Shown: positions 4,674-58,879 of the stretch, piece after piece | How the letters are laid out: each line of letters begins with the position of its first letter | Numbering within the stretch: position 1 is the stretch's first letter | Assembly: GCF_021531375.1 (NCBI RefSeq) | Contig: NZ_JADYTU010000009.1 | Span: forward strand, 1 to 64,000 | Origin: Pseudoflavonifractor phocaeensis | GTDB lineage: Bacteria; Bacillota; Clostridia; Oscillospirales; Oscillospiraceae | Direction of reading: 5' to 3' | DNA length: 64,000 nt | The notes under the pieces: generated by a model | Told to the model about the DNA's origin: nothing | Databases searched by the model: none | Seen by the model: only the letters and a program-made list of their open reading frames with translations | Program-made: the position numbers and the translations under genes

Positions 4674-7049
4674 CTACCCTGTAATGGTGGTCCCCTGAAC
4701 CCGCTGTCCCAGCATCTCCAGCAGCAGGGCGTGCTCCACCCGGCCATCCAGGATGGACACCTCCCCTACCCCGGCCCGGACCGCGTGGACGCAGCCCCGG
4801 ACCTTGGGCACCATGCCTCCGGCGATGAGGCCGGCTTCGATGAGCTCCTCCGCCCGCTTTACGTCCATCCGGGGCACCGCTGTCTTGGTGTTGTGGCTGT
4901 CGATGAGCACCCCGCCGATGTCGGTGAGGAAGATCAGCTTGTGGGCTCCCATGGCCTCGGCCACCGCCCGGGCGGCGTCGTCGGCGTTGCAGTTCAGCCC
5001 CCCGCCGTCCTCCCCCAGGGCGATGGGAGAGACCACGGGCAGGAAGCCCCCGTCCAGCAGGGTGTTCAGCACCTTGGGGTCCACTTTGGTGATGGAGCCC
5101 ACCCGGCCCAGGGCCGGGTCCTTGACGGCCGCGGTGATGAGGCCGCCGTCCTTGCCCGAGATGCCCACGGCGGACACCTCCAGCCGGGCCAGATCCTGGA
5201 CGATGGCCTTGTTCACCTGGGCGGACAGGGCCATCTCGGCGGTGCCCAGGGCCGCCTCGTCGGTGACCCGGTAGCCGTTTTCAAAGCGGGTGGGCACCTG
5301 GAGCTTGTTCAGCAGGGCGGTGATGTGCTTGCCGCCTCCGTGGACCAGCACCACCCGGACCCCCACCATCCGCAGGGCGGCCACGTCCTGGAGGGTGGTG
5401 TCGCCGTCGGCCTCCGCCCCGATGGCGGAGCCGCCGTACTTGACCACCACGGTCTGGCCCTCGGCCCGGTTGAGGATGGGCAGGATGGACAGCAGGCTGC
5501 GTACCTTCTCCATGCCGTCCAGACCGTGCCGTACGTCGTACTCCTGCAAAAAGCTGTGGACGTAATCCACGTCGGAGGGGGTGTCGATATACTGGGTGCC
5601 CCGCTTCTGGCGGGTCTCCGCCCCCTTGCCGGTGATGAGGAGGACGGTGGGCCGTCCGTCGCAGCCCAGGATGGCCTGGCGGATGGCCTCCCCCCGGTTG
5701 GGCTCGATGGAGTATTCGCAGCCCTGAGCGGCCACATGCTGGGCCACCTCACGGCAGATGGCCTCGGTGTCCTCCTCCCCGGAGTCCTCCTCGGTGAGGA
5801 CCACCAGGTCGGAGTATTGGCCCGAAACCTCGCCCAGGTCTTTTCGCCGGTCCAGGGCCTTCTTGCCCGGACAGCCGAAGACGGTGACGATCCGCCGGCC
5901 GGGGTACTCGGCCCGGACGGAGCGGAACAGGGTCTCGAAGGACATGCGGTTGTGGGCGTAGTCCACGATGGCGGTCACCGTCTCGTCGGCGTTGGAGTAG
6001 ACCTCCATCCGGCCGGGGACCCGGGCCTTCATCAGACCCACATAGATGTACCGCTCGGGGATGTTCAGCCCCTCGCAGACGGTGATGGCGGCCAGCGCGT
6101 TCTCCACGTTGAACAGCCCCGGCATGGTCAGCCGGAACTCCCGCAAAAAGCGGCGGGTCTTTACCCGGAACAGGATGTCGTTGCCCCGCTTCCGGACCTG
6201 GGAGGCGTAGACGTCGGCCTCCTCATTCTTCTGGGAGAAGGTGTAGACCGGCTTGCCGCTGGCCCGGGCGGCCGCCAGCACCCGGTCGGCGTGGTCACAG
6301 TCCAGATTGACGCAGCAGATCTTGGCCTGGGCGAAAATGCGGAGCTTGGAGGTGAAGTAGTCCTCAAAGTCCGGGTGCTCGATGGGCGAAATGTGGTCTT
6401 GGCCGATGTTCAAAAAGCAGGCGGCGGCGAAGTCGGTGCACAGGGAGCGGTGGTACTTCAGAGCCTGGCTGGACACCTCCATGGTCAGGTACTCCATCCC
6501 CGTGGAAACTCCGTTGGCGAAGTGGCGCTGGAGGTCCAGCGGCTCGGGGGTGGTGAGGTGGGACTCGAACTGCTCCACCCCGTCGTAGGTGTCGATGGAG
6601 GAGACCACGCCGGAGGCGGGCTTCCCCTCCCCTTCCATATACTCGTCCAGAATATACTTCAGGTAGTAGGTGGTGGAGGACTTGCCCTTGGTGCCGGTGA
6701 TGCCGATGACCTTCAGCTTTCCCGAGGGGTGGTCATAGAACAGGTCGGCCAGGGGGGCGATGGTCAGGCGCATGTCCGACACCAAAATGCAGGGCAGGTC
6801 CACTTCGGGATAGGGGGTCAGGCTGACATAGGCCATGGCGCCTTTGTCCTTGGCCATTTGCAGAAACTCGGCCTTGAAGTGGGCGCCCTTGCAGAGAAAC
6901 AGGGTGCCGGGGACCACCTCCCGGGAGTCGTAGGACACCAGAGCCACCGGGGCCGTCCGGTCCAGTGACCCCGGGATGGGGGCGGCCAGCAGGCCCCGCC
7001 CCTCCAGCAGGTCGATATAGTCGCTGAGGGTGTGAAGGGTGTGTTCCAT
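4674..7049 (-). CDS. Fusion protein: MurE-type muropeptide ligase joined to ArgB-type acetylglutamate kinase
   Basis: Residues 1 to about 500 form a complete Mur ligase: DSREV (41-45), P-loop GTKGKSST (119-126), MEVSSQAL (190-197), NIGQDHISPIEH (214-225), VDYAHNRMSFE and FGCPGKKALDRRKDLGEVSG. Residues about 513-791 form a complete acetylglutamate kinase: VVVKYGGSA, VLVHGGGKHI, NGYRVTD, VNKAIVQDL, VGISGKDGGLI, NCNADDAARAVA, LTDIGGVL, GGMVPKV, ILDGR. The first half should add residue 3 to UDP-MurNAc-L-Ala-D-Glu. It has TEEDSGEED where meso-DAP enzymes carry DNPR, so L-Lys or another diamine is more likely. The second half should phosphorylate N-acetylglutamate in arginine synthesis. No stop and no properly spaced ribosome site separates the halves, though Met513 could mark an ancestral argB start. 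No other arg gene is in the window. Confidence 0.9.
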   Translation of the reverse strand: MEHTLHTLSDYIDLLEGRGLLAAPIPGSLDRTAPVALVSYDSREVVPGTLFLCKGAHFKAEFLQMAKDKGAMAYVSLTPYPEVDLPCILVSDMRLTIAPLADLFYDHPSGKLKVIGITGTKGKSSTTYYLKYILDEYMEGEGKPASGVVSSIDTYDGVEQFESHLTTPEPLDLQRHFANGVSTGMEYLTMEVSSQALKYHRSLCTDFAAACFLNIGQDHISPIEHPDFEDYFTSKLRIFAQAKICCVNLDCDHADRVLAAARASGKPVYTFSQKNEEADVYASQVRKRGNDILFRVKTRRFLREFRLTMPGLFNVENALAAITVCEGLNIPERYIYVGLMKARVPGRMEVYSNADETVTAIVDYAHNRMSFETLFRSVRAEYPGRRIVTVFGCPGKKALDRRKDLGEVSGQYSDLVVLTEEDSGEEDTEAICREVAQHVAAQGCEYSIEPNRGEAIRQAILGCDGRPTVLLITGKGAETRQKRGTQYIDTPSDVDYVHSFLQEYDVRHGLDGMEKVRSLLSILPILNRAEGQTVVVKYGGSAIGAEADGDTTLQDVAALRMVGVRVVLVHGGGKHITALLNKLQVPTRFENGYRVTDEAALGTAEMALSAQVNKAIVQDLARLEVSAVGISGKDGGLITAAVKDPALGRVGSITKVDPKVLNTLLDGGFLPVVSPIALGEDGGGLNCNADDAARAVAEAMGAHKLIFLTDIGGVLIDSHNTKTAVPRMDVKRAEELIEAGLIAGGMVPKVRGCVHAVRAGVGEVSILDGRVEHALLLEMLGQRVQGTTITG

Positions 7050-11671: not shown

Positions 11672-13084
11672 ATGGAACGCACAACTACCGTCATCCCCCA
11701 GGCCGACGTGGAGCGGCAGCTGGACTGCTGCCGCAAGATCGCCGCCCTCACCGCCCAATGGGACAAGCAGCCCCTGGCCTTTGTGGACACCTACGGCTGC
11801 CAGCAGAACGAGGCCGACTCCGAGCGCATCCGGGGCTATCTGGCCCAGATGGGCTTCGGCTTCACCGACGACGAGGAGCAGGCCCGGATCATCGTCATCA
11901 ACACCTGCGCCATCCGGGAGCACGCCGAGCAGCGGGTGCTGGGCAACGTGGGCGCTCTGGTCCATGTGAAGCGCCGCCATCCCGAGCAGCTTATCTGCCT
12001 GTGCGGCTGCATGATGCAGGAGCAGCACGTGGCCGACAAGATCCGCCAGTCCTACCGCCATGTGGACCTGGTCTTCGGTCCCCATGCCCTGTGGAAATTC
12101 CCCGAGATGATCCACACCCTGCTGACCCAGCGGGGACGCATCTTCTCCAACGCCGACGAGGCGGGCTCCATCGCCGAGGGCATCCCCGTGGTCCGGCAGG
12201 ACAGCGTCAAGGCCTGGGTGTCCATCATGTACGGCTGCAACAACTTCTGCGCCTACTGCATCGTCCCCTACGTCCGGGGCCGGGAGCGCTCCCGGAAGCC
12301 GGAGGACATCCTGGCCGAGGTGCGCGCGCTGGTGGCCGAGGGCTATAAGGACATCACCCTCCTGGGCCAGAACGTCAACTCCTACGGCAAGGACATGGAG
12401 GAGCCCATGGACTTCTCCGACCTGCTGGAGCAGGTCAACGCCATCCCCGGGGACTTTCTCATCCGGTTCATGACCTCCCACCCCAAGGACGCCACCCACA
12501 AGCTCTTTGAGACCATGGCCCGGTGCGAAAAGGTGGCCCCGGTCCTCCACCTGCCCGTCCAGGCGGGCAACGACCGGGTGCTGAAGGTGATGAACCGCCG
12601 CCACACCCGGGAGCAGTACCTGGAAAAGATCCGGGACCTGAAGTCCCTGATCCCCGATATCGTCCTCACCTCCGACATCATCGTGGGCTTCCCCGGGGAG
12701 ACCACGGAGGAATTTGAGGACACCCTGAAGGTGCTGGAGGAGGTGCGCTACGACGCCCTGTTCACCTTCATCTTCTCCCCCCGGGTGGGCACCCCCGCCG
12801 CCAAGATGGACGACCCCATGTCCCACCAGGAGAAGCTGGCCAATTTCAACCGCCTGCTGGCCCTCCAGGACGCCATTTCCGAGGAGAAGCACGCCGCCTA
12901 TATCGGGAAAACGGTGCGCTGCCTGATCGACGGGGAGTCCGACGACGCCCGCTACGACCTCACCGCCCGCACGCCTGGCAACCGCCTGGTCCGGGTGGTG
13001 GGAGACAAGTCCGCCATCGGCCAGTTCCGGGACGTGAAGATCACCGACGCCAACAAGTGGTCCCTGTTCGGGGAACTGGTGTGA
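11672..13084 (+). CDS. miaB: tRNA-2-methylthio-N6-dimethylallyladenosine synthase
   Basis: The 470-residue radical-SAM methylthiotransferase acts on i6A37 of tRNAs reading UNN codons. Domains in order are the N-terminal MTTase domain with three cluster cysteines (DTYGCQQNEADSE, INTCAIREHAEQR, LCGCMMQEQ), the radical SAM core with CX3CX2C (YGCNNFCAYCIVPYVRGRE), and a C-terminal TRAM domain (about 405-470). GGGAGGAAC precedes the start. It shares one base with the downstream transposase start and heads a syntenic miaB-mutS-mutL-miaA-hfq cluster. MiaA, further down, makes the substrate of MiaB. Confidence 0.97.
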   Translation: MERTTTVIPQADVERQLDCCRKIAALTAQWDKQPLAFVDTYGCQQNEADSERIRGYLAQMGFGFTDDEEQARIIVINTCAIREHAEQRVLGNVGALVHVKRRHPEQLICLCGCMMQEQHVADKIRQSYRHVDLVFGPHALWKFPEMIHTLLTQRGRIFSNADEAGSIAEGIPVVRQDSVKAWVSIMYGCNNFCAYCIVPYVRGRERSRKPEDILAEVRALVAEGYKDITLLGQNVNSYGKDMEEPMDFSDLLEQVNAIPGDFLIRFMTSHPKDATHKLFETMARCEKVAPVLHLPVQAGNDRVLKVMNRRHTREQYLEKIRDLKSLIPDIVLTSDIIVGFPGETTEEFEDTLKVLEEVRYDALFTFIFSPRVGTPAAKMDDPMSHQEKLANFNRLLALQDAISEEKHAAYIGKTVRCLIDGESDDARYDLTARTPGNRLVRVVGDKSAIGQFRDVKITDANKWSLFGELV

Positions 13085-13590
13085 TGGCGAGGCTGCCGGA
13101 ACGAAAGCATACCCGCCTGAGAAGCTATGATTACAGCCGGGATGGGGCGTATTTTGTCACGACCAATGTGCGGGATAACCGCTGTCTGCTGTCTGCCGTT
13201 CGGGTAGGGCGGGGGCTTGCCCCCGCCGAACCTGAATTGACCGCCTTGGGAGAAATCGCTCAGACGCAGATTTTGGATCTCTCCCGGCGTTATCCCTATG
13301 TGGCGGTGGATAAATATGTGGTTATGCCAAACCATGTCCATATGATCCTGCTTTTTCAGGACGGGGCGGCGGGGGCCAGCCCCCGCCCTACCCTGATGCA
13401 GGTGATCGGTGCGTTTAAATCCGTGACGGCCCGCCTGTGCAATCAAGCCCAAAATACTCCGGGCGAGAAGTTTTGGCAGGATTCTTTTTATGAAAGCGTC
13501 CTGCGAAGCGACAAAGCTTACCAAAACGCCTGGAATTACATCGACGCCAACCCCGCCAAGTGGGCGGAGGACAAATATTACGTCCCGTGA
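13084..13590 (+). CDS. REP-associated tyrosine transposase (RAYT, Y1/HUH family)
   Basis: The 168-residue protein has the HUH motif MPNHVHMILL (His84, His86). A C-terminal WNYIDANPAKW segment supplies the likely catalytic Tyr152. An N-terminal segment, YDYSRDGAYFVTTNVRDN, is typical of IS200-related TnpA-REP proteins, which cut and move single-stranded REP hairpins. Residues 41-48 (VGRGLAPA) and 95-102 (AAGASPRP) are translations of two REP palindromes in opposite orientation, both in loops. The ATG overlaps the miaB stop (TGATG), so it is translationally coupled. The gene interrupts the usual miaB-mutS adjacency, and it is the only transposase gene in the window. Confidence 0.88.
   Translation: MARLPERKHTRLRSYDYSRDGAYFVTTNVRDNRCLLSAVRVGRGLAPAEPELTALGEIAQTQILDLSRRYPYVAVDKYVVMPNHVHMILLFQDGAAGASPRPTLMQVIGAFKSVTARLCNQAQNTPGEKFWQDSFYESVLRSDKAYQNAWNYIDANPAKWAEDKYYVP
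13204..13228 (+). repeat. REP palindrome inside the RAYT gene (forward)
   Basis: GTA followed by a perfect 9-bp stem GGCGGGGGC-TT-GCCCCCGCC. Translated in frame as VGRGLAPA. Confidence 0.9.
13368..13391 (-). repeat. REP palindrome inside the RAYT gene (reverse)
   Basis: Stem GGCGGGGGC-CA-GCCCCCGCC followed by CTAC, the mirror orientation of the copy at 13204. Together the two make an inverted pair within the transposase coding sequence. Confidence 0.9.
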
Positions 13591-13599
13591 CCGGGCAGG

Positions 13600-13695
13600 G
13601 CGGACGGCGGGGCGTCCGGAGGCCGCCCCCTACAAAAGATGAGAATACGCGCCTGCGCAGGGGCCGGCGTCCCCGACGGCCCGCCGTCGAATTCC
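13600..13695. repeat. GC-rich palindromes between RAYT and mutS
   Basis: Contains GGGGCGTCCGGAGGCCGCCC followed by CCTAC, the reverse of the GTAGGGGGCGGCC...GACGCCCC family seen at 18.5, 28.6 and 58.7 kb, then further GC-rich partial inverted repeats. No gene is seen here. Confidence 0.6.
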
Positions 13696-13750
13696 CCCAT
13701 TCCAGACAAGAACGACCTTTAACCACACAAAACAGAAAGACGGTGAACCC

Positions 13751-16360
13751 ATGGCTGACCTCACCCCCATGATGCAGCAATATCTGGACATGAAGGCCCG
13801 GAACCCGGACTCCATCCTCTTTTTCCGTCTGGGCGATTTTTATGAGATGTTCAACGAGGACGCCAAGCTGGTGTCCAAGGAGCTGGACCTGACTCTGACC
13901 ACCCGGGACCGGAACAAGCCTCCGGAGGAGCGCACTCCCATGTGCGGGGTGCCCTACCACTCCTGCGACAGCTACATCGCCCGGCTCATCGCCAAGGGCT
14001 ACAAGGTGGCCATCTGCGAGCAGACCGAGGACCCGGCCCTGGCAAAGGGTCTGGTGGACCGGGACATCATCCGGGTGGTCACCCCCGGCACCGTCATCGC
14101 CTCCTCCATGCTGGAGGAGGGGAAGAACAACTATATCTGCGGCATCTACGCCGACTCCGCCGTCTGGGGCCTGTGCCTGTGCGACATCTCCACCGGCGAG
14201 GTGTACGCCACCTCCTTCCCCGCCGGGACGGAGGCCCAGGACCATCTGGAAAACGAGCTGGGCCGGTTCCACCCCGCCGAGGCGGTGCTGTCCGACGGGG
14301 CCTACCACGCCGACGGCCTGGTGGACTTTCTGCGGGAGCGGCTGGACTGTTCCTGCGAGAACGGGGGCGAAGGCCGCTTCCGGCTGGGCGCCGCCCGTCC
14401 CCTGGTGGAAAAGCAGTTCAAGACCGGCCTGGACACCCTCCCCGAGGGGGATACCGGGGCGGTCCAGGCGGCAGGGGGCCTGCTGGCCTACCTGTATGAG
14501 ACCCAAAAGACCGATTTGTCCCACATCGCCAACTTTACCTATTACACCTCGGAGCAGTTCATGGAGCTGGACCTCACCGCCCGCCAGACTCTGGAGCTCA
14601 CCGCCACCCTGCGCTCCAAGGACAAGAAGGGCTCCCTGCTGTGGGTGCTGGACAAGACCAAGACCGCCATGGGCGGCCGGCTCATCCGGGGCTGGATGGA
14701 GCGGCCCCTCCTCTCCCCTGTCCAGATCGGTCGGCGGCAGCAGGCGGTGAGCGATCTGGTGGAGGACATCATCACCCGGGAGGAGCTGTCCCTCACCCTG
14801 CGGGAGGTCACCGACCTGGAGCGGCTCATCGGCCGGGTAGTCTACGGCTCCGCGGGGGGGCGGGATCTGGCGGCTTTGGCCAACGGCCTGGGAAAGCTGC
14901 CCCGGCTCCGGGAACTGCTGGAGGGCTGCTCCTCCGCCCTGCTCCGGTCCCTGCGGGAGGAGCTGGACGACCTGCCCCAGCTCCGGGACCTGCTGGGCCG
15001 GGCCCTGGTGGACGAGCCCCCCTTCTCCGTCCGGGAGGGCGGCTTCATCCGCTCTGGCTACGACCAGGAGGTGGACCGGCTCCGGGACCTGCTGGACCAC
15101 TCCGCCGAAAAGCTGGCGGAGCTGGAGGTCCGCACCAAGGAGCAGACGGGCATCAAGAACATGAAGGTCAAGTCCAACAAGGTCTTTGGCTACTACATCG
15201 AGGTGGCCAAGTCCCAGATCGACCTGGTGCCCGCCGACTGGACCCGAAAGCAGACCACGGTGAACGCCGAGCGGTACATCTCCCAGGAGCTGAAGGAGCT
15301 GGAGCACGCCATCCTCTCCGCCGAGGACAAGGTCACCGCCCTGGAGTACCAGCTCTTCTGTGAGCTGAAAGAGCAGGTCTGCGCCCAGGTGGCCAGAATT
15401 CAAAAGTCCGCCGCCGCCGTGGCCCAGGTGGACGTGCTCAACTCCTTTGCCGCGGTGGCCGCCGCCAACAATTACTGTATGCCTCTGGTGGACACCTCCG
15501 ATGTGCTGAACATCCAGGAGGGCCGCCATCCCGTGGTGGAAAAGGTGCTGAAAAACACCCTGTTCGTCCCAAACGACACCCACATGGACTGCGGCGGCGA
15601 CCTGTGCGCCATTATCACCGGCCCCAACATGGCGGGCAAGTCCACCTATATGCGCCAGGTGGCCCTCATCGTCCTCATGGCCCAGATGGGCTCCTTCGTC
15701 CCCGCCAAGTCCGCCCACATCGGCGTGGTGGACCGGGTGTTCACCCGCATCGGGGCCAGCGACGACCTGTCCGCCGGCCAGTCCACCTTTATGGTGGAGA
15801 TGACCGAGGTGGCCGCCCTGCTGAAAAACGCCACAAAGAAGTCCCTGCTCATCCTGGACGAGATCGGCCGGGGTACCTCCACCTACGACGGCATGGCCAT
15901 TGCCCGGGCCGTTCTGGAGTACTGCGCCGACCCCCGGCGGCTGGGGGCCAAGACCCTCTTCGCCACCCACTACCACGAGCTGACCGCCCTGGAGGGCCAG
16001 ATCCCCGGGGTGAAGAACTACAACATCGCCGCCAAGAAGCGGGGCTCCGATGTGATCTTCCTGCGGAAGATCGTCCGGGGCGGCGCGGACCAGAGCTACG
16101 GCGTGGAGGTGGCCAAGCTGGCCGGGGTCCCCGACCGGGTCATACGCCGGGCCCGGGAGATCCTGGAGGAGCTGGAGAGCGGAAACGGGACTGAACCGGT
16201 AGGGCGGGGGCAAGCCCCCGCCGCCGATGACCAGATATCCCTCATGGACCTGGGCAGCCAGACCGTGCTGAAAAAGCTGCGCCTGACCGACGTGAACGTC
16301 CTCTCCCCCATCGAGGCCCTGAACCTGCTGGCCGAGCTGAAGCAGGACATGAACGGGTGA
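13751..16360 (+). CDS. mutS: DNA mismatch repair protein MutS
   Basis: The 869-residue mismatch-recognition ATPase forms a dimeric clamp and recruits MutL. Domain I carries the mismatch-reading motif GDFYEMF (near residue 30). A connector, lever and clamp follow. The ATPase has Walker A GPNMAGKST, Walker B LLILDEIGRGTST and FATHYHEL. Near the C-terminus residues 816-823 (VGRGQAPA) are the in-frame translation of a REP hairpin, in the flexible linker between ATPase and C-terminal tail. The reading frame is intact, so activity is probably kept. The Shine-Dalgarno site is weak. mutL follows after 79 bases. Confidence 0.97.
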   Translation: MADLTPMMQQYLDMKARNPDSILFFRLGDFYEMFNEDAKLVSKELDLTLTTRDRNKPPEERTPMCGVPYHSCDSYIARLIAKGYKVAICEQTEDPALAKGLVDRDIIRVVTPGTVIASSMLEEGKNNYICGIYADSAVWGLCLCDISTGEVYATSFPAGTEAQDHLENELGRFHPAEAVLSDGAYHADGLVDFLRERLDCSCENGGEGRFRLGAARPLVEKQFKTGLDTLPEGDTGAVQAAGGLLAYLYETQKTDLSHIANFTYYTSEQFMELDLTARQTLELTATLRSKDKKGSLLWVLDKTKTAMGGRLIRGWMERPLLSPVQIGRRQQAVSDLVEDIITREELSLTLREVTDLERLIGRVVYGSAGGRDLAALANGLGKLPRLRELLEGCSSALLRSLREELDDLPQLRDLLGRALVDEPPFSVREGGFIRSGYDQEVDRLRDLLDHSAEKLAELEVRTKEQTGIKNMKVKSNKVFGYYIEVAKSQIDLVPADWTRKQTTVNAERYISQELKELEHAILSAEDKVTALEYQLFCELKEQVCAQVARIQKSAAAVAQVDVLNSFAAVAAANNYCMPLVDTSDVLNIQEGRHPVVEKVLKNTLFVPNDTHMDCGGDLCAIITGPNMAGKSTYMRQVALIVLMAQMGSFVPAKSAHIGVVDRVFTRIGASDDLSAGQSTFMVEMTEVAALLKNATKKSLLILDEIGRGTSTYDGMAIARAVLEYCADPRRLGAKTLFATHYHELTALEGQIPGVKNYNIAAKKRGSDVIFLRKIVRGGADQSYGVEVAKLAGVPDRVIRRAREILEELESGNGTEPVGRGQAPAADDQISLMDLGSQTVLKKLRLTDVNVLSPIEALNLLAELKQDMNG
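16199..16222 (+). repeat. REP palindrome inside mutS
   Basis: GTA plus stem GGCGGGGGC-AA-GCCCCCGCC. It is in frame and adds about nine residues to the MutS linker. Confidence 0.9.
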
Positions 16361-16439
16361 GGATGCCTGTGATCCCCTTGTATTTTGATGATATATTGTA
16401 TTCTTTCGACCGTATATAACGCTAAGTAGAGGTGTTGTA

Positions 16440-18470
16440 ATGCCTAAGATCCAAGTATTAGATTCCCATGTGGCCGACCTGATCGCCGCCGGCGAGGTGG
16501 TGGAGCGGCCCGCCTCCGTGGCCAAGGAGCTGATGGAGAACGCCATCGACGCCGGGGCCTCCAAGGTCACCGTGGAGATCGCCCACGGGGGGATGACCTT
16601 CCTCCGGGTCACCGACGACGGCAGGGGCATCCCCGCCGGCGAGGTAAAGACCGCCTTTCTCCGCCACGCCACCAGCAAGCTGCGCACCGAATATGACCTG
16701 GAGGCCATCGGCACTCTGGGCTTCCGGGGGGAGGCCCTGGCCGCCATTTCCGCCGTCTCCCGGGTGGAGGTCATGACCCGGACTCCCGAGGCAGAGCTGG
16801 GGGCCTCCCTGGCGCTGGAGGGGGGCGTCCCCGGGAACGTGGAGGAGACAGGCTGTCCCCTGGGCACCACCATGGTGGTCCGGGACCTGTTTTACAACAC
16901 CCCCGCCCGGCTGAAGTTTATGAAGAAGGACGCCGCCGAGGGGGCCGCCGTCTTCGCCGTGGTCCAGCGGGTGGCCCTGTCCCACCCGGAGGTCTCCGTG
17001 AAGTTTATTCGGGACGGAAAGCAGGAGCTGCTCACCCCCGGAGACGGCCAGCTCCAGTCCGCCGTCTACGCCGTCCTGGGCCGGGAGCTGGCCCTGGGCT
17101 TCCGCCCGGTGAAGGCCACCGGGGAGGACATGACGGTGTCCGGCTTCGTCTCCCTCCCCGCCTGTTGCCGGAGCAGCCGGAACTGGCAGTTTTTCTTCGT
17201 CAACGGCCGCCAGGTCAAGTCCCGGATCATGATGGCCGCCCTGGAGGAGGCCTACCGCAACCAGAAAATGGTAGGGAAATTCCCTGGCTGTGTCCTCCAT
17301 CTGGAGACAAAGCTCAACGCCGTGGACGTGAACGTCCACCCCGCCAAAACCGAGGTGAAGTTCGGCAATGAGCGGCAGGTGTTTTCGGCGGTGTACCACG
17401 CTGTCCTGTCCGCACTGGAGCAGGACCGGAGCCACCCGGCCATAGAACTGCAAAAAGGGGTCCCCGGCGCAGCCCAGCGCAGCGGCAGTGTTGGGGAAAG
17501 GACGAGCAACGCAGCGCAGCGGATGTTGGGCGCTAGCCAAACGGAGCGGAGCGGAGTTTACGAGGACGTTGTCACCCCCAACCAGACCCGGCTGACCATT
17601 CCGGCCCCGCCTGCCAAGCCCCAGGTCCGGGTCCAGGATACCACCTACAAAATGCAAAATGCGGGCCCTGTCCCCACGGAGCCGTCCCCCGTGGCGGCGC
17701 ACAGTGTGCGCCTGCCCGTGAACCCGCCTGAGCCGGAAAAGCCCGTCGATTCTGTCGGGGCCGGTATTACCCGCCGCGGCGGGGGCGAGCCCCCGCCCTA
17801 CCGGGACAGGACGCCTTCCGCAGAAGCGGAGATCATCCGTCCACTGTCGCCGGAACCGGCCCCGGTCCCTGTTAAGGAAGAAGCCTCCCACGCCCTTCTC
17901 CCCGAGGAAGCGCCCTGGCGCATGGCCGGGGAGGTGCTGAACACCTACATCATCGTGGAGCAGGGGGAGACGGTGTACTTCATCGACAAGCACGCCGCCC
18001 ACGAGCGGATGAACTTCGACCGGATGAAGGCGGAGGGCTACCACCCCATGGCCCAGACCCTGCTGGCTCCGGTGACCTGCCGTTTGGCGGCGGAGGAGCA
18101 GGAGGCGCTGCTGGCCCACCTGCCCCTGCTGGAGGAGTTCGGCTTCGACGTGGACGAGCTGGGGGGCGCTCTGGCGGTGCGCCAGGCCCCTGACCATGTG
18201 GCGGTGGAGGATATCCCCTCCACCCTGGAAGAGATCGCCCTGAAACTGCTGACCACCGGCTCCGCCGACCCCGCCGCCGCCCGGGACGAGCTGCTCCACA
18301 CCATGGCCTGCAAGGCGGCCATCAAGGGGGGCTGGAAAACCAGTCCCCAGGAGCTGGAGCGGGTGGCCCAGGCCGTGATGAGCGGCAGCGTGAAATATTG
18401 CCCCCATGGCCGCCCTGTGGCCATTCAGCTGACGAAAAAGGAACTGGAGAAGCAGTTCAAGCGGGCCTGA
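16440..18470 (+). CDS. mutL: DNA mismatch repair protein MutL
   Basis: The 676-residue protein couples MutS to strand incision. Its N-terminal GHKL ATPase shows ELMENAIDAGAS, DDGRGI, RHATSKL and GFRGEALAAISAVSRV, then DLFYNTPARLKF. The C-terminal dimerization/endonuclease domain has the metal motif DKHAAHERMNFD (usual DQHA(X)2E(X)4E; the last Glu is Asp here), ACKAAIKGG and CPHGRP, so it belongs to the nicking class. The linker (about 340-470) is unusually repetitive. It includes two AAQR units around residues 345-365, and residues 446-454 (GGGEPPPY region) come from a reverse REP hairpin. AGAGGTG precedes the ATG. Confidence 0.97.
   Translation: MPKIQVLDSHVADLIAAGEVVERPASVAKELMENAIDAGASKVTVEIAHGGMTFLRVTDDGRGIPAGEVKTAFLRHATSKLRTEYDLEAIGTLGFRGEALAAISAVSRVEVMTRTPEAELGASLALEGGVPGNVEETGCPLGTTMVVRDLFYNTPARLKFMKKDAAEGAAVFAVVQRVALSHPEVSVKFIRDGKQELLTPGDGQLQSAVYAVLGRELALGFRPVKATGEDMTVSGFVSLPACCRSSRNWQFFFVNGRQVKSRIMMAALEEAYRNQKMVGKFPGCVLHLETKLNAVDVNVHPAKTEVKFGNERQVFSAVYHAVLSALEQDRSHPAIELQKGVPGAAQRSGSVGERTSNAAQRMLGASQTERSGVYEDVVTPNQTRLTIPAPPAKPQVRVQDTTYKMQNAGPVPTEPSPVAAHSVRLPVNPPEPEKPVDSVGAGITRRGGGEPPPYRDRTPSAEAEIIRPLSPEPAPVPVKEEASHALLPEEAPWRMAGEVLNTYIIVEQGETVYFIDKHAAHERMNFDRMKAEGYHPMAQTLLAPVTCRLAAEEQEALLAHLPLLEEFGFDVDELGGALAVRQAPDHVAVEDIPSTLEEIALKLLTTGSADPAAARDELLHTMACKAAIKGGWKTSPQELERVAQAVMSGSVKYCPHGRPVAIQLTKKELEKQFKRA
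17778..17801 (-). repeat. REP palindrome inside mutL
   Basis: Stem GGCGGGGGC-GA-GCCCCCGCC followed by CTAC, in reverse orientation and in frame within the interdomain linker. Confidence 0.9.
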
Positions 18471-18496: not shown

Positions 18497-18692
18497 TGTG
18501 TAGGGGGCGGCCTCTGGACGCCCCACAGGGAGGGCCGTCGAGGACGCCGGCCCCTACGGCGAAGAGGAAGGCTTATAGGGGCGCATCACGATGCGCCCGT
18601 GGGCGGCCACATGGGGCCGCCCCTACGGATTTTGCCCCACCTGTCCGGTTTCGGTATCTGTCTCCGGTAGGACGGGGGCTTGCCCCCGCCGC
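18497..18692. repeat. Cluster of palindromic repeats between mutL and miaA
   Basis: Four hairpin types sit side by side: GTAGGGGGCGGCC..GACGCCCC (18500-18524), TAGGGGCGCATCACGATGCG (18577-18600), GCGGCCACATGGGGCCGCCC (about 18602-18627), and a slightly imperfect REP GTAGGACGGGGGCTTGCCCC (18667-18690). They fill most of the 255-bp gap, and no gene is seen here. Confidence 0.8.
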
Positions 18693-22202: not shown

Positions 22203-22697
22203 ATGGGAATCTTTGATGAATTCAAGAGACTGGCCCACCCTTATGAAGATGAGGAAGAGGACGATTTTGAGGACGATTTCGACGTGTCCCCCCGCCCGGT
22301 GGAGCGCCGGGAGCGGGCTGACCGCGCCGACCGCACCGACCGGATCAGCCGGTCCGAGGGCGGCTATGTCGCCGGAGACGAGGAGCGCCGCAGCAACAAG
22401 GTGGTGAACATCCGGGCGGCCACCCAGCTCCAGGTGGTGCTGGTGAAGCCGGAGAAGTTCGAGGACGCCTCCGCCATCGCCGACCATCTGCGGGAAAAGC
22501 GGACCGTGGTGCTGAATCTGGAGTCCACCAACAAGGAGATCGCCCGCCGTCTGCTGGACTTCCTGTCCGGCGTGGCCTATGCCAACGAGGGCAAGATCAA
22601 GAAGGTGGCCATCTCCACCTACATCATCACGCCTTATAACGTGGATATTCTGGGCGATTTGATCGACGAACTGGAGAACAACGGGCTGTACTTCTGA
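22203..22697 (+). CDS. sepF: Cell division protein SepF
   Basis: The 164-residue FtsZ-associated protein has an N-terminal amphipathic membrane-binding helix (MGIFDEFKRLAHPY), an acidic and Arg-rich linker, and a C-terminal SepF fold (about 75-160: LVKPEKFEDASAIADHLREK, VVLNLESTNKEIARRLLDFL, YANEGKIKKVA). It tethers and bundles FtsZ at the septum. AGAGGAAG precedes the ATG. A near-identical copy of its last 30 codons is present 155 bases downstream. Confidence 0.96.
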   Translation: MGIFDEFKRLAHPYEDEEEDDFEDDFDVSPRPVERRERADRADRTDRISRSEGGYVAGDEERRSNKVVNIRAATQLQVVLVKPEKFEDASAIADHLREKRTVVLNLESTNKEIARRLLDFLSGVAYANEGKIKKVAISTYIITPYNVDILGDLIDELENNGLYF

Positions 22698-22852
22698 GAT
22701 GGCCAACGGGGCCCCATCGCAGATGGGGCGGCGCGGTAAGCGCCGTAAATTCGGAGGGCCGCAGGCCCAGAGAATTTCCGCAGGGCGAATTCATTTCGCC
22801 CGAGGATTTTAAATCAAAGGGGTCCCCGCACGATGCGGAGCATCGGGTGGGG
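22698..22852. other. Non-coding spacer between sepF and its duplicated 3' end
   Basis: This 155-bp stretch holds short palindromes (GGGCGAATTCATTTCGCCC and CGATGCGGAGCATCG) and no credible reading frame. It separates the complete sepF from a second copy of its 3' end. Confidence 0.5.
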
Positions 22853-22944
22853 CGGCCATCTCCACCTACATCATCACGCCCTATAACGTGGATATTCTGG
22901 GCGACCTGATCGACGAACTGGAGAACAACGGGCTGTACTTCTAA
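22853..22944 (+). pseudogene. Duplicated 3' end of sepF (fragment)
   Basis: About 90 bases repeat sepF 22606-22697 almost exactly, encoding AISTYIITPYNVDILGDLID and the rest through NGLYF plus a stop. Differences seen are few: CCT to CCC, GATTTG to GACCTG, TGA to TAA, all silent, and one change at the first codon. There is no start codon or ribosome site, so it is a fragment rather than a gene. Confidence 0.85.
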
Positions 22945-27010: not shown

Positions 27011-27100
27011 GCTGCGGGCGGCTACATAGGGCCGCCCCTACATTACCGCAGGCAGACCGTGAGGCGCTTCGGCGGTAGGGCGGGGGCTTGCCCCCGCCGC
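27011..27100. repeat. Two palindromic repeats between pncB and secG
   Basis: A GGGCGGC..GCCGCCC hairpin ending in CTAC (about 27016-27042) and a perfect REP GTAGGGCGGGGGCTTGCCCC (27075-27099), in the spacer between two converging terminators. Confidence 0.8.
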
Positions 27101-28488: not shown

Positions 28489-28515
28489 AGGGCGCCTCCC
28501 AAGTGAGAAAATGAA

Positions 28516-28709
28516 AAATTTTAGTTTATGGATGTATTATGGGGCGTCGGGGACGCCGCCCCCTACGTACGGTTTACAATATGGCTTCGTAGGGGGCGGC
28601 CTCTGGACGCCCCGCCCGTAGGGCGGCCCCTTGGGGCCGCCGCCAAAATGGCAGCCGTCGGACGGCGAGGACAAGCCCCCGCCCTACATGAAACGATAAA
28701 CTAAAATTT
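28516..28709. mobile_element. MITE-like element, 194-bp copy
   Basis: Perfect 14-bp terminal inverted repeats AAATTTTAGTTTAT (28516-28529) and ATAAACTAAAATTT (28696-28709). The interior carries three GC-rich palindromes: GGGGCGTCGG..GCCGCCCC, GTAGGGGGCGGCC..GACGCCCC, and TAGGGCGGCCCC..GGGGCCGCC. A degenerate REP ends in GCCCTAC. The first 145 bases match the copy at 58.6 kb with only two or three differences. There is no reading frame. The right terminal repeat contributes two bases of the mnmG stop codon. Confidence 0.75.
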
Positions 28710-36859: not shown

Positions 36860-36928
36860 GTAGGGCGGGGACTTGTCCCCGCCGCCGGCCCGGGTTTACT
36901 CTGCGGCGGGGGCAGGCCCCCGCCCTAC
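36860..36928. repeat. Inverted pair of REP palindromes (BIME-like)
   Basis: Forward REP GTAGGGCGGGGACTTGTCCC (36860-36883) and reverse REP GGCGGGGGC-AG-GCCCCCGCC followed by CTAC (36905-36928) lie 21 bases apart, head to head. The second ends just before the hemZ ribosome site. Confidence 0.85.
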
Positions 36929-58593: not shown

Positions 58594-58635
58594 AGGGATT
58601 GTTCCTTGCCTTTCTGTGAGGTTGAGATGAGAGAT

Positions 58636-58879
58636 AAATTTTAGTTTATGGATGTATTATGGGGCGTCGGGGACGCCGCCCCCTACGCACGGTTTACAAT
58701 ATGGCTTCGTAGGGGGCGGCCTCTGGACGCCCCGCCCGTAGGGCGGCCCCTTGGGGCCGCCGCCAAAATGGCAGCTGTCGGACGGCGGGGGCCGATTCCC
58801 CCCATCGGGGGGAAATGGCCGAAGGCCAAAAGGGGGAGGGATAAGCCCTCGCCCTACATGAAACGATAAACTAAAATTT
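58636..58879. mobile_element. MITE-like element, 244-bp copy
   Basis: Perfect 14-bp terminal inverted repeats AAATTTTAGTTTAT (58636-58649) and ATAAACTAAAATTT (58866-58879). The first roughly 145 bases are almost identical to the copy at 28516. The rest is longer by about 50 bases through an added CCCCCCATCGGGGGG palindrome and an imperfect GC-rich tail ending GCCCTAC. No reading frame is seen. It lies three bases from the ymdB stop codon. Confidence 0.75.

Follow-up and report, generated by a model that had tools for sequence, protein, structure and literature searches.

In a 64,000-nucleotide stretch of the Pseudoflavonifractor phocaeensis genome (contig NZ_JADYTU010000009.1, positions 1 to 64,000; hereafter the window), four short palindromes are read through in frame inside three consecutive genes, namely a gene for a REP-associated tyrosine transposase (RAYT), mutS and mutL. 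We find that these palindromes are GTAG-type repetitive extragenic palindromic (REP) sequences, and this identity, together with the conservation of an inverted REP pair inside the RAYT gene, is firmly established among the genes examined. The explanation that we consider probable is that they belong to the REP family matched to the RAYT, that the internal inverted pair keeps the enzyme and its target matched, and that genic copies persist where they are read in frame in disordered linkers, chiefly those of MutS and MutL. The RAYT enzyme and its REP target appear to be inherited together, because the pair inside the RAYT gene changes in step between relatives.

Each of the four in-gene hairpins has a GTAG foot, a 9-bp stem and a 2-nt loop, and GTAG REPs are defined, in the available text of PMC3733652 (Table 1), by GTAG at the foot of an imperfect palindrome with a stem of 5-13 bp and a loop of 2-20 nt. 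The exact hairpins, GGCGGGGGC-NN-GCCCCCGCC, lie at 13208-13227, 13368-13387, 16203-16222 and 17778-17797, and with the GTAG foot included the spans are 13204-13227 (+), 13368-13391 (-), 16199-16222 (+) and 17778-17801 (-). An initial annotation, made by a model from the letters alone, had described in-frame palindromes in mutS, mutL and the RAYT gene; their positions proved exact, all frames are intact, the peptides VGRGLAPA, GASPRP, VGRGQAPA and GGGEPPPY are read from the hairpins as it claimed, and the elements are indeed REP-type, translated in frame and accompanied by an adjoining REP-type transposase gene. The pattern GGCGGGGGC/GCCCCCGCC with up to 3 mismatches gave 14 matches in the window against 1.0 expected (maximum 5 across 100 shuffles). 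The genome-wide count that the annotation had proposed gave, in this genome of 2.28 Mb on 66 contigs, 28 exact copies of the stem against 0 of the reversed pattern; with up to 3 mismatches there were 61 matches against 26 in the reversed control, so the loose matches are partly noise. A general search of the window for GTAG hairpins found 21 (20 at slightly stricter settings) against 1 in the reversed sequence. The window is 82% genic according to a self-trained gene caller, which missed the full-length window RAYT, yet only 4 hairpins are genic (two in the RAYT gene, one in mutS and one in mutL), and the other 17 of the 21 lie outside genes, as in a family with many dispersed, mainly intergenic copies.

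The RAYT gene (13084..13590, +) encodes 168 aa from an ATG at 13084, and its start overlaps the miaB stop as TGATG. The protein passes the cut-off of Pfam Y1_Tnp, scores 65.7 bits against NCBIfam REP_Tyr_transpos, under the curated cut-off of 80, and by these family models is a divergent member of the superfamily. It carries the HUH motif MPNHVH (13324-13341) and YIDANP, with Tyr152 (13537-13539) as the candidate catalytic residue, and thus the core of an HUH motif and a single tyrosine; M81, P82, H84, H86 and Y152 are invariant across a 27-sequence alignment. The top PDB match of the predicted structure (mean pLDDT 88.9) is 4er8 (E 3.4e-07), which is E. coli TnpA-REP bound to REP. The first REP (13204..13227, +, GTAG on the left) encodes VGRGLAPA at aa 41-48, a loop between strands 37-40 and 49-52 that precedes the first long helix. 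The second (13368..13391, -, CTAC on the right) encodes an AGASPRPT loop (about aa 95-102) that connects the HUH strand, 84-91, to helix 104-123. The intervening 140 nt (13228..13367, +) encode a helix, strands and the HUH motif. As RNA, the two REP arms pair mutually in a long stem (-124.7 kcal/mol, z -7.0).

We compared the internal hairpins in two sets of RAYT genes, both made up of the best-scoring relatives of the window RAYT and mainly from Clostridia. Set 1 combined an order-wide search (66 of 295 genomes matched, of which the best 30 gave loci), a genus search (33 of 61 genomes matched, 30 loci) and 20 extra stretches. Of its 79 loci (L076-L154), fifteen contributed no separate gene: 2 duplicated genes already in the set, 8 had HUH and a truncated or unparsed Y motif, and 5 were without HUH. 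With 3 genes from mutS loci the set came to 67 parsed, non-redundant genes; among the loci left out, L091, L115 and L129 visibly carry REP-like peptides and L078 is without a second REP. Set 2 started from the 80 best-scoring loci among 577 relatives found in named genomes; 9 of them contributed no gene (3 were duplicates and 6 could not be parsed) and one contributed two, which left 72 genes. We found that 59 of the 67 genes in set 1 have both hairpins, one before the HUH motif and an inverted one between the HUH and Tyr motifs; 3 have the first only, 3 the second only and 2 neither. Orientation is nearly fixed, at 57 vs 2 for the 5' hairpin and 59 vs 1 for the 3' hairpin. Although 39 distinct first hairpins occur among the 59 paired genes, identity between the two hairpins is 0.933 within a gene (23 exact) vs 0.543 between genes, a difference reached in 0 of 20,000 permutations. 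Set 2 gave the same picture, with both hairpins in 55 of 72 genes (first only 4, second only 10, neither 3), orientations of 56 vs 3 and 65 vs 1, and identities of 0.903 vs 0.553 (0 of 10,000 permutations). Its second-only genes include L221 and L230 from Chloroflexi and L222 from Tissierellales; from such sequences the second position looks older or wider, as in TnpA-REP subclass 2.4, and the first may have been added in Clostridia.

The two hairpins also change together. Close RAYT pairs such as L111/L113 and L121/L122 alter both jointly, and across 57 genes, of the 25 stem pairs that differ between a gene's two hairpins, 18 are compensated, 6 one-sided and 1 unpaired; the hairpin finder demands pairing and is biased to compensated changes, so that 18 of 25 is an upper view. 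The two copies, being inverted, encode different peptides, which makes it unlikely that their match arises from protein selection. The initial annotation had mentioned VGxGLAPA and GASPxPT strings in other RAYT proteins, and such strings are found there, the RAYT copies being conserved; the two copies are not stray insertions and form one matched inverted pair that changes in step between genes. With GTAG facing outward and matched arms, the pair has the form of an inverted REP unit, and its coding spacer has a median of 140 nt (109 genes). Cognate REPs rarely flank these genes: within 400 bp, set 1 has 4 upstream, 4 downstream and 0 on both sides among 65 genes, and set 2 has 14 upstream, 7 downstream and 3 on both sides among 69. 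For the window RAYT the best flanking-REP identity is 0.58, so cognates do not stand on both sides of it. As a separate observation, G060 (locus L078) and Pseudoflavonifractor sp. An44 (L171) have RAYT genes that do not differ from the HUH motif to the end.

The central segment running from the first REP through HUH to the second, with both REPs, appears from the alignments to have been exchanged between a few RAYT genes. In the pair L121/L122, from two species, the gene starts are near-identical with an exact 43-nt run, and the 3' ends share exact runs of 96 and 41 nt with similarity extending past the stop, whereas the centres are about 55-60% identical with unrelated stems. L139/L143 form a mosaic resembling L121/L122. 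A RAYT stands between miaB and mutS in the window genome (G000) and likewise in its nearest relative (G020); at the 3' end the two genes agree exactly over 63 nt, and over most of their remaining length they are about 50-70% alike. In the control pair L118/L122, which have the same stems, similarity is even along the gene. In a comparison of centres and stems covering 109 of the 139 RAYT genes, pairs with flank identity of at least 0.75 had a centre identity of 0.759 with the same stems (n=29) vs 0.667 with different stems (n=49). We also considered whether divergent stems always accompany a divergent centre and set this aside as weak; below a flank identity of 0.75 the difference is small or reversed.

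The internal pair tends to equal the dispersed REP family of its genome, with exceptions, as in a specific association of a RAYT with its REP. We counted four stems across 61 genus genomes, scoring broken or unparsed RAYTs (e.g. G351, stem GGCCGATG) as absent and with several genomes incomplete. Wherever a genome has a parsed RAYT with one of these internal stems, it also has dispersed copies of the stem (4/4, 5/5, 3/3 and 4/4), compared with 11/57, 24/56, 24/58 and 12/57 of the other genomes for the same four stems (rank-test p 4e-5, 1e-3, 8e-3 and 3e-4; Fisher p 0.003, 0.02, 0.08 and 0.003). G011 has the window stem in just one dispersed copy. In 400 kb of G007, dispersed REPs stand with GTAG outward in 30 of 44 close neighbour pairs, and 27 of these 30 have spacers of 15-41 nt.

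We also found REPs in the linkers of the mismatch-repair (MMR) proteins. In the window, mutS (13751..16360, +, 869 aa, Pfam MutS I-V) carries its REP at 16199..16222 (+), encoding VGRGQAPA at aa 817-824, downstream of MutS_V (which ends at 809) in the linker before the C-terminal segment. The REP of mutL (16440..18470, +, 676 aa, named by Pfam) is inverted at 17778..17801 (-) and encodes GGGEPPPY at aa 447-454, in the inter-domain linker between DNA_mis_repair (ends at 326) and MutL_C (starts at 499). The annotation's remark that all copies sit in loops or linkers is thus borne out, the RAYT copies lying in loops of a confident model and the MutS and MutL copies outside Pfam domains. Across the genus, a GTAG-like hairpin occurs in 11 of 30 MutS linkers vs 0.6 in codon shuffles (exact GTAG in 8; one of the 11, L023, is doubtful), with several stems and in both orientations, and in 8 of 27 MutL linkers vs 2.6 in codon shuffles, a count that includes several weak ones and leaves 3 of 30 loci unparsed by the end motif (the window's own, L067 and L071). 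The MutS linkers of G007 and G035 have nearly the same flanks and an inner stem of GGCC/GGCC vs GGAT/ATCC, a compensated difference that looks, in this alignment, like replacement in place.

In 5 of 9 genomes, a REP in an MMR gene matches a REP of a resident RAYT at an identity of 0.9 or more (permutation p 6e-4); without the window genome, from which the question arose, the count is 4 of 8. The 9 are those with both a parsed RAYT and an MMR-gene hairpin, which leaves out weak hairpins (e.g. MutL of G023) and the genomes without a parsed RAYT (G001, G002, G028, G034 and G035). The match is exact in MutL of G007 and G036; for MutS of G011 and G005, and for both proteins of the window genome, the loop alone differs. 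The nearest relative, G020 (91.7% mutS DNA identity), has no MutS palindrome; its linker differs by a net 6 nt and the surroundings differ too. The mean length is 90 nt for 10 REP-bearing MutS linkers and 82 nt for 17 others; the linkers of G005, with two REPs, of G010, with another repeat, and of G034 and G022, with decayed REPs, fall in neither group. From the 6-nt net difference and these means we infer that the REP replaced part of the linker or was trimmed into it. The initial annotation had looked for relatives lacking exactly the 8-10 residue insert with intact flanks, and none was seen in MutS, where the linker is hypervariable and no clean empty site was found among the relatives' linkers; the contigs of G020 end inside mutL. 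Relatives free of intergenic REPs that nevertheless carry the same peptides, which it had named as evidence for an ordinary linker sequence, did not turn up as far as tested, VGRGQAPA being in no other of 31 MutS linkers.

To ask how REPs are spread over coding sequence, we used the fetched genus loci, where 28 of 281 distinct hairpins are genic (9 in mutS, 8 in mutL, 9 in RAYT genes and 2 in RAYT fragments) and 0 lie in 321 kb of other coding sequence; these loci are biased to mutS, mutL, RAYT and REP sites, and the coding lengths include locus overlaps while the hairpins are distinct. In G007, 400 kb sampled evenly contain 293 kb of coding sequence and 78 hairpins. One of these is genic, and it looks like a chance match by eye since it starts GTAGTCC, not GTAGGG. 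In 400 kb of G011 there are 2 hairpins, 0 of them genic, and as this is under the reversed control of 10, G011 is little informative. Around 20 places in G007, 0 of 23 copies of GGGCGGAT lie in genes. Without the window's two, mutS and mutL hold 15 hairpins over 169 kb vs none real-looking in 614 kb elsewhere, and equal density is unlikely (about 1e-10 by hand), a comparison that does not control for linker content and whose 15 hairpins come from 12 related genes.

How could such an arrangement arise and persist? By analogy with the TnpA-REP enzymes of E. coli and Stenotrophomonas, the RAYT would bind and cut its own REP as a single-stranded hairpin and so spread REPs; TnpA-REP acts on REP hairpins according to the available text of PMC8266576. 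The internal pair, upheld by selection or by repair from cognate copies, would let enzyme and target stay matched and be inherited or swapped together. Genic copies would survive solely in frame and in disordered linkers, with those of MutS and MutL as the main such sites here. Beyond this, it is possible, and we put it forward tentatively, that the RAYTs of these gut Clostridia are self-addressed and modular, with the HUH centre as the spacer of an internal REPIN that consists of the target hairpins of the enzyme itself and is exchanged as a cassette, and that the same REPs preferentially colonise the flexible MutS and MutL tethers, where whichever REP family is current overwrites the older stems at the same site. 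If so, target recognition and target sequence travel together, and the REP family of a genome can switch in one step.

Several observations weigh against our account. One or both hairpins are missing from 8 of 67 and 17 of 72 RAYTs, the loci are the best-scoring ones so that distant RAYTs are under-sampled, and the rows are related, so the permutations overstate independence; the bias of the hairpin finder towards compensated changes belongs here as well. Concerning exchange, the internal pair of L143 is poorly matched (0.62), and in a two-ended screen of 116 of the 139 genes, strict mosaics (both ends at least 0.85, centre at most 0.72) number 2 pairs, while 42 pairs have at least one such end. 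As for the family match, the Fisher test is not significant for stem GGGCGCACA, and stem-rich genomes without a parsed cognate RAYT are common: G007 holds 136 copies of GGGCGGAT and one RAYT, which is non-cognate, and ten genomes without a parsed cognate RAYT hold at least 10 copies of GGGCGGAT. Such cases indicate that REPs outlast their RAYT or that the RAYT was missed.

The strongest competing account is passive tolerance, in which REPs insert anywhere, in-frame survivors are left in loops and linkers, and the match of the pair is a functionless product of recent insertion or ordinary gene conversion. We regard this as rather unlikely. It would fit the placing of the in-gene sites in loops or linkers, the presence of MutS linker REPs in both orientations and a hypervariable MutS linker that accepts other repeats (G010 vs G027). 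However, the RAYT orientation is nearly fixed even though MutS shows that both are readable, the pair stands in two fixed loops in 59 of 67 genes with differing stem pairs mostly compensated, and no other gene is hit in the sequence examined, bar one chance-like match. It is improbable, in our judgement, that the repair-gene copies were instead selected for lowering or tuning mismatch repair, with mutator-like lineages favouring REP spread, a reading in line with the initial annotation's idea that element spread could alter mutation and recombination rates. Within the genus, REPs do turn up repeatedly in MutS and MutL and scarcely anywhere else in the sampled sequence, and the MutS copy is directly followed by QISL (16232..16243, +), which resembles the beta-clamp-binding consensus QL[SD]LF given in the available text of PMC6006769 and may be a putative clamp-binding site. 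Against selection of this kind, linker length is barely altered (about +8 nt), linkers are the least constrained parts, and the MutS of most congeners has no REP.

Two further readings were rejected. Conservation at the protein level, with the loop peptides conserved and the DNA palindrome incidental, is highly improbable; VGRGLAPA and GASPRP do recur within one RAYT clade, but between RAYTs the peptides change completely (VGADIIRP, RGAHCAPA, VGADVLIGP and others) while the GTAG hairpin persists, and the two loops differ in the peptides they encode although their DNA is close to a reverse-complement match. That the palindromes are chance products of a GC-rich genome, or artefacts of assemblies that resemble metagenome-assembled genomes, is barely credible given 14 window matches against 1.0 expected, 28 genome copies against 0 reversed, and the same architecture in many separate assemblies, including the single-contig G007 and G011.

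Parts of this picture are known already, as REPs in repair genes were described by Di Nocera (2013) and REPs in RAYT genes by Quentin (2018). In its available text, Di Nocera 2013 (PMC3733652) describes in-frame REPs in genes, with repair genes prominent and a speculation on mutators; the host genes named there include uvrA/B, uvrD, recBCD, DNA polymerase I and dnaE2, with mutS and mutL not among them, and two Xanthomonas species have different REPs at about the same recB site. The elements here share with that GTAG REP superfamily the GTAG foot, a short stem and loop, a mostly intergenic location, a predominance of inverted dimers and some in-frame genic copies; unlike the REPs of that text, they hit one linker in many congeners, with one stem swapped in place. 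The same source describes Rickettsia palindromic elements that enter genes in frame, the short ones being CGTC-type and without a dedicated transposase. The initial annotation had likened our palindromes to these; the comparison is sound as a way of working, with in-frame palindrome entry as the shared feature, but no relative was found in which MutS lacks exactly the insert.

Within RAYT genes, the closest precedent is TnpA-REP subclass 2.4, for which the available text of Quentin 2018 (PMC6006769) reports in-frame REPs inside tnpA; they lie in a surface region that varies, as a rule between the HuH and Y motifs, and are present "in addition to" flanking REPs. The second REP of the window RAYT, at 13368-13391, has this in-frame position between HuH and Y; in comparison with that text, the RAYTs here differ by another REP before HUH, a matched inverted pair, rare flanking cognates and a few exchanged centres. 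For the REPtron, the available text of Nunvar 2010 (PMC2817692) states that a RAYT always has an inverted pair of REPs on its two sides. Both arrangements join one transposase gene with an inverted pair of a cognate REP, except that here the pair lies within the coding sequence and not at its flanks.

REPINs, reportedly described by Bertels and Rainey in 2011 as two inverted REPs forming a unit, share the inverted pair, and the dispersed pairs here have REPIN geometry; the RAYT pair differs by its coding spacer, which is longer than in the dispersed pairs. Searches of the open-access PMC literature, together with the cited papers as far as available (subscription papers and supplements lying outside), brought up no account of matched inverted REPs on the two sides of HUH or of their concerted change, of RAYT cassette exchange, or of mutS and mutL as recurrent REP sites. 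The inverted RAYT pair, its concerted change, the cassette exchange and the recurrent use of mutS and mutL as hosts seem to be new. They bear on the question of what holds a domesticated transposase and its non-autonomous REPs to one another over long periods. If our account is correct, the internal exchangeable pair is a readable target label for each RAYT gene, so that RAYT-REP specificity could be predicted from one gene. The repeated arrival of REPs in MutS and MutL, seen across a genus, connects two repair proteins with a family of mobile elements and provides natural variants of their tethers.

The gene order at the locus, all on the + strand, is miaB, RAYT, mutS, mutL and miaA, with miaB and miaA named from the sequence by eye without a family scan. 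Outside genes, the family of the four in-gene hairpins includes a REP at 27075..27098 (+) and an inverted pair at 36860..36928 (36860-36883 + and 36905-36928 -) with a 21-nt spacer and REPIN geometry. The second RAYT of the window genome (G000:C11, locus L136) holds a different internal pair from the window RAYT, and an intergenic REP of the window, GTAGGGGCGGCCCCATGTGGCCGCCC at 18601..18626 (-), is identical to that pair. A REP of a different family, GTAGGGGGCGGCCTCCGGACGCCCC, lies in the gap between the RAYT gene and mutS at 13609..13633 (-). The nearest relative G020 does not have the stretch of about 130 nt around it (about 13605-13735), which was probably inserted or deleted between the two genes.

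Other repeats were seen in the linkers and nearby. The MutL linkers of L057, L069 and L070 (G009, G036 and G030) have one or two inverted, REPIN-like REP pairs in frame. The mutS genes of L019 (G010) and L020 (G027) are 97% identical with wholly different linkers, one of which has a repeat of another type, GCAGAATGCAGAATGC, at the same site. In the window, a part of the mutL linker at about 17455-17575 (aa about 339-378) contains a second dispersed repeat type that is seemingly translated (AQRSGSVGERTSN...), with short matches elsewhere in G028, G017, G009, G023 and G022 and related strings in the MutL linkers of congeners. Partial duplicates of the mutL 3' end occur near the gene end at G020:C26:5936-6079 and 6115-6195 and at G001:C179:1528-1608. 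Elsewhere in the window, two 158-nt blocks 30 kb apart (28513-28670 and 58633-58790) are 97% identical and contain several REPs of other families, and a 92-nt direct repeat (22604-22695 and 22851-22942, 247 nt apart) has 96% identity.

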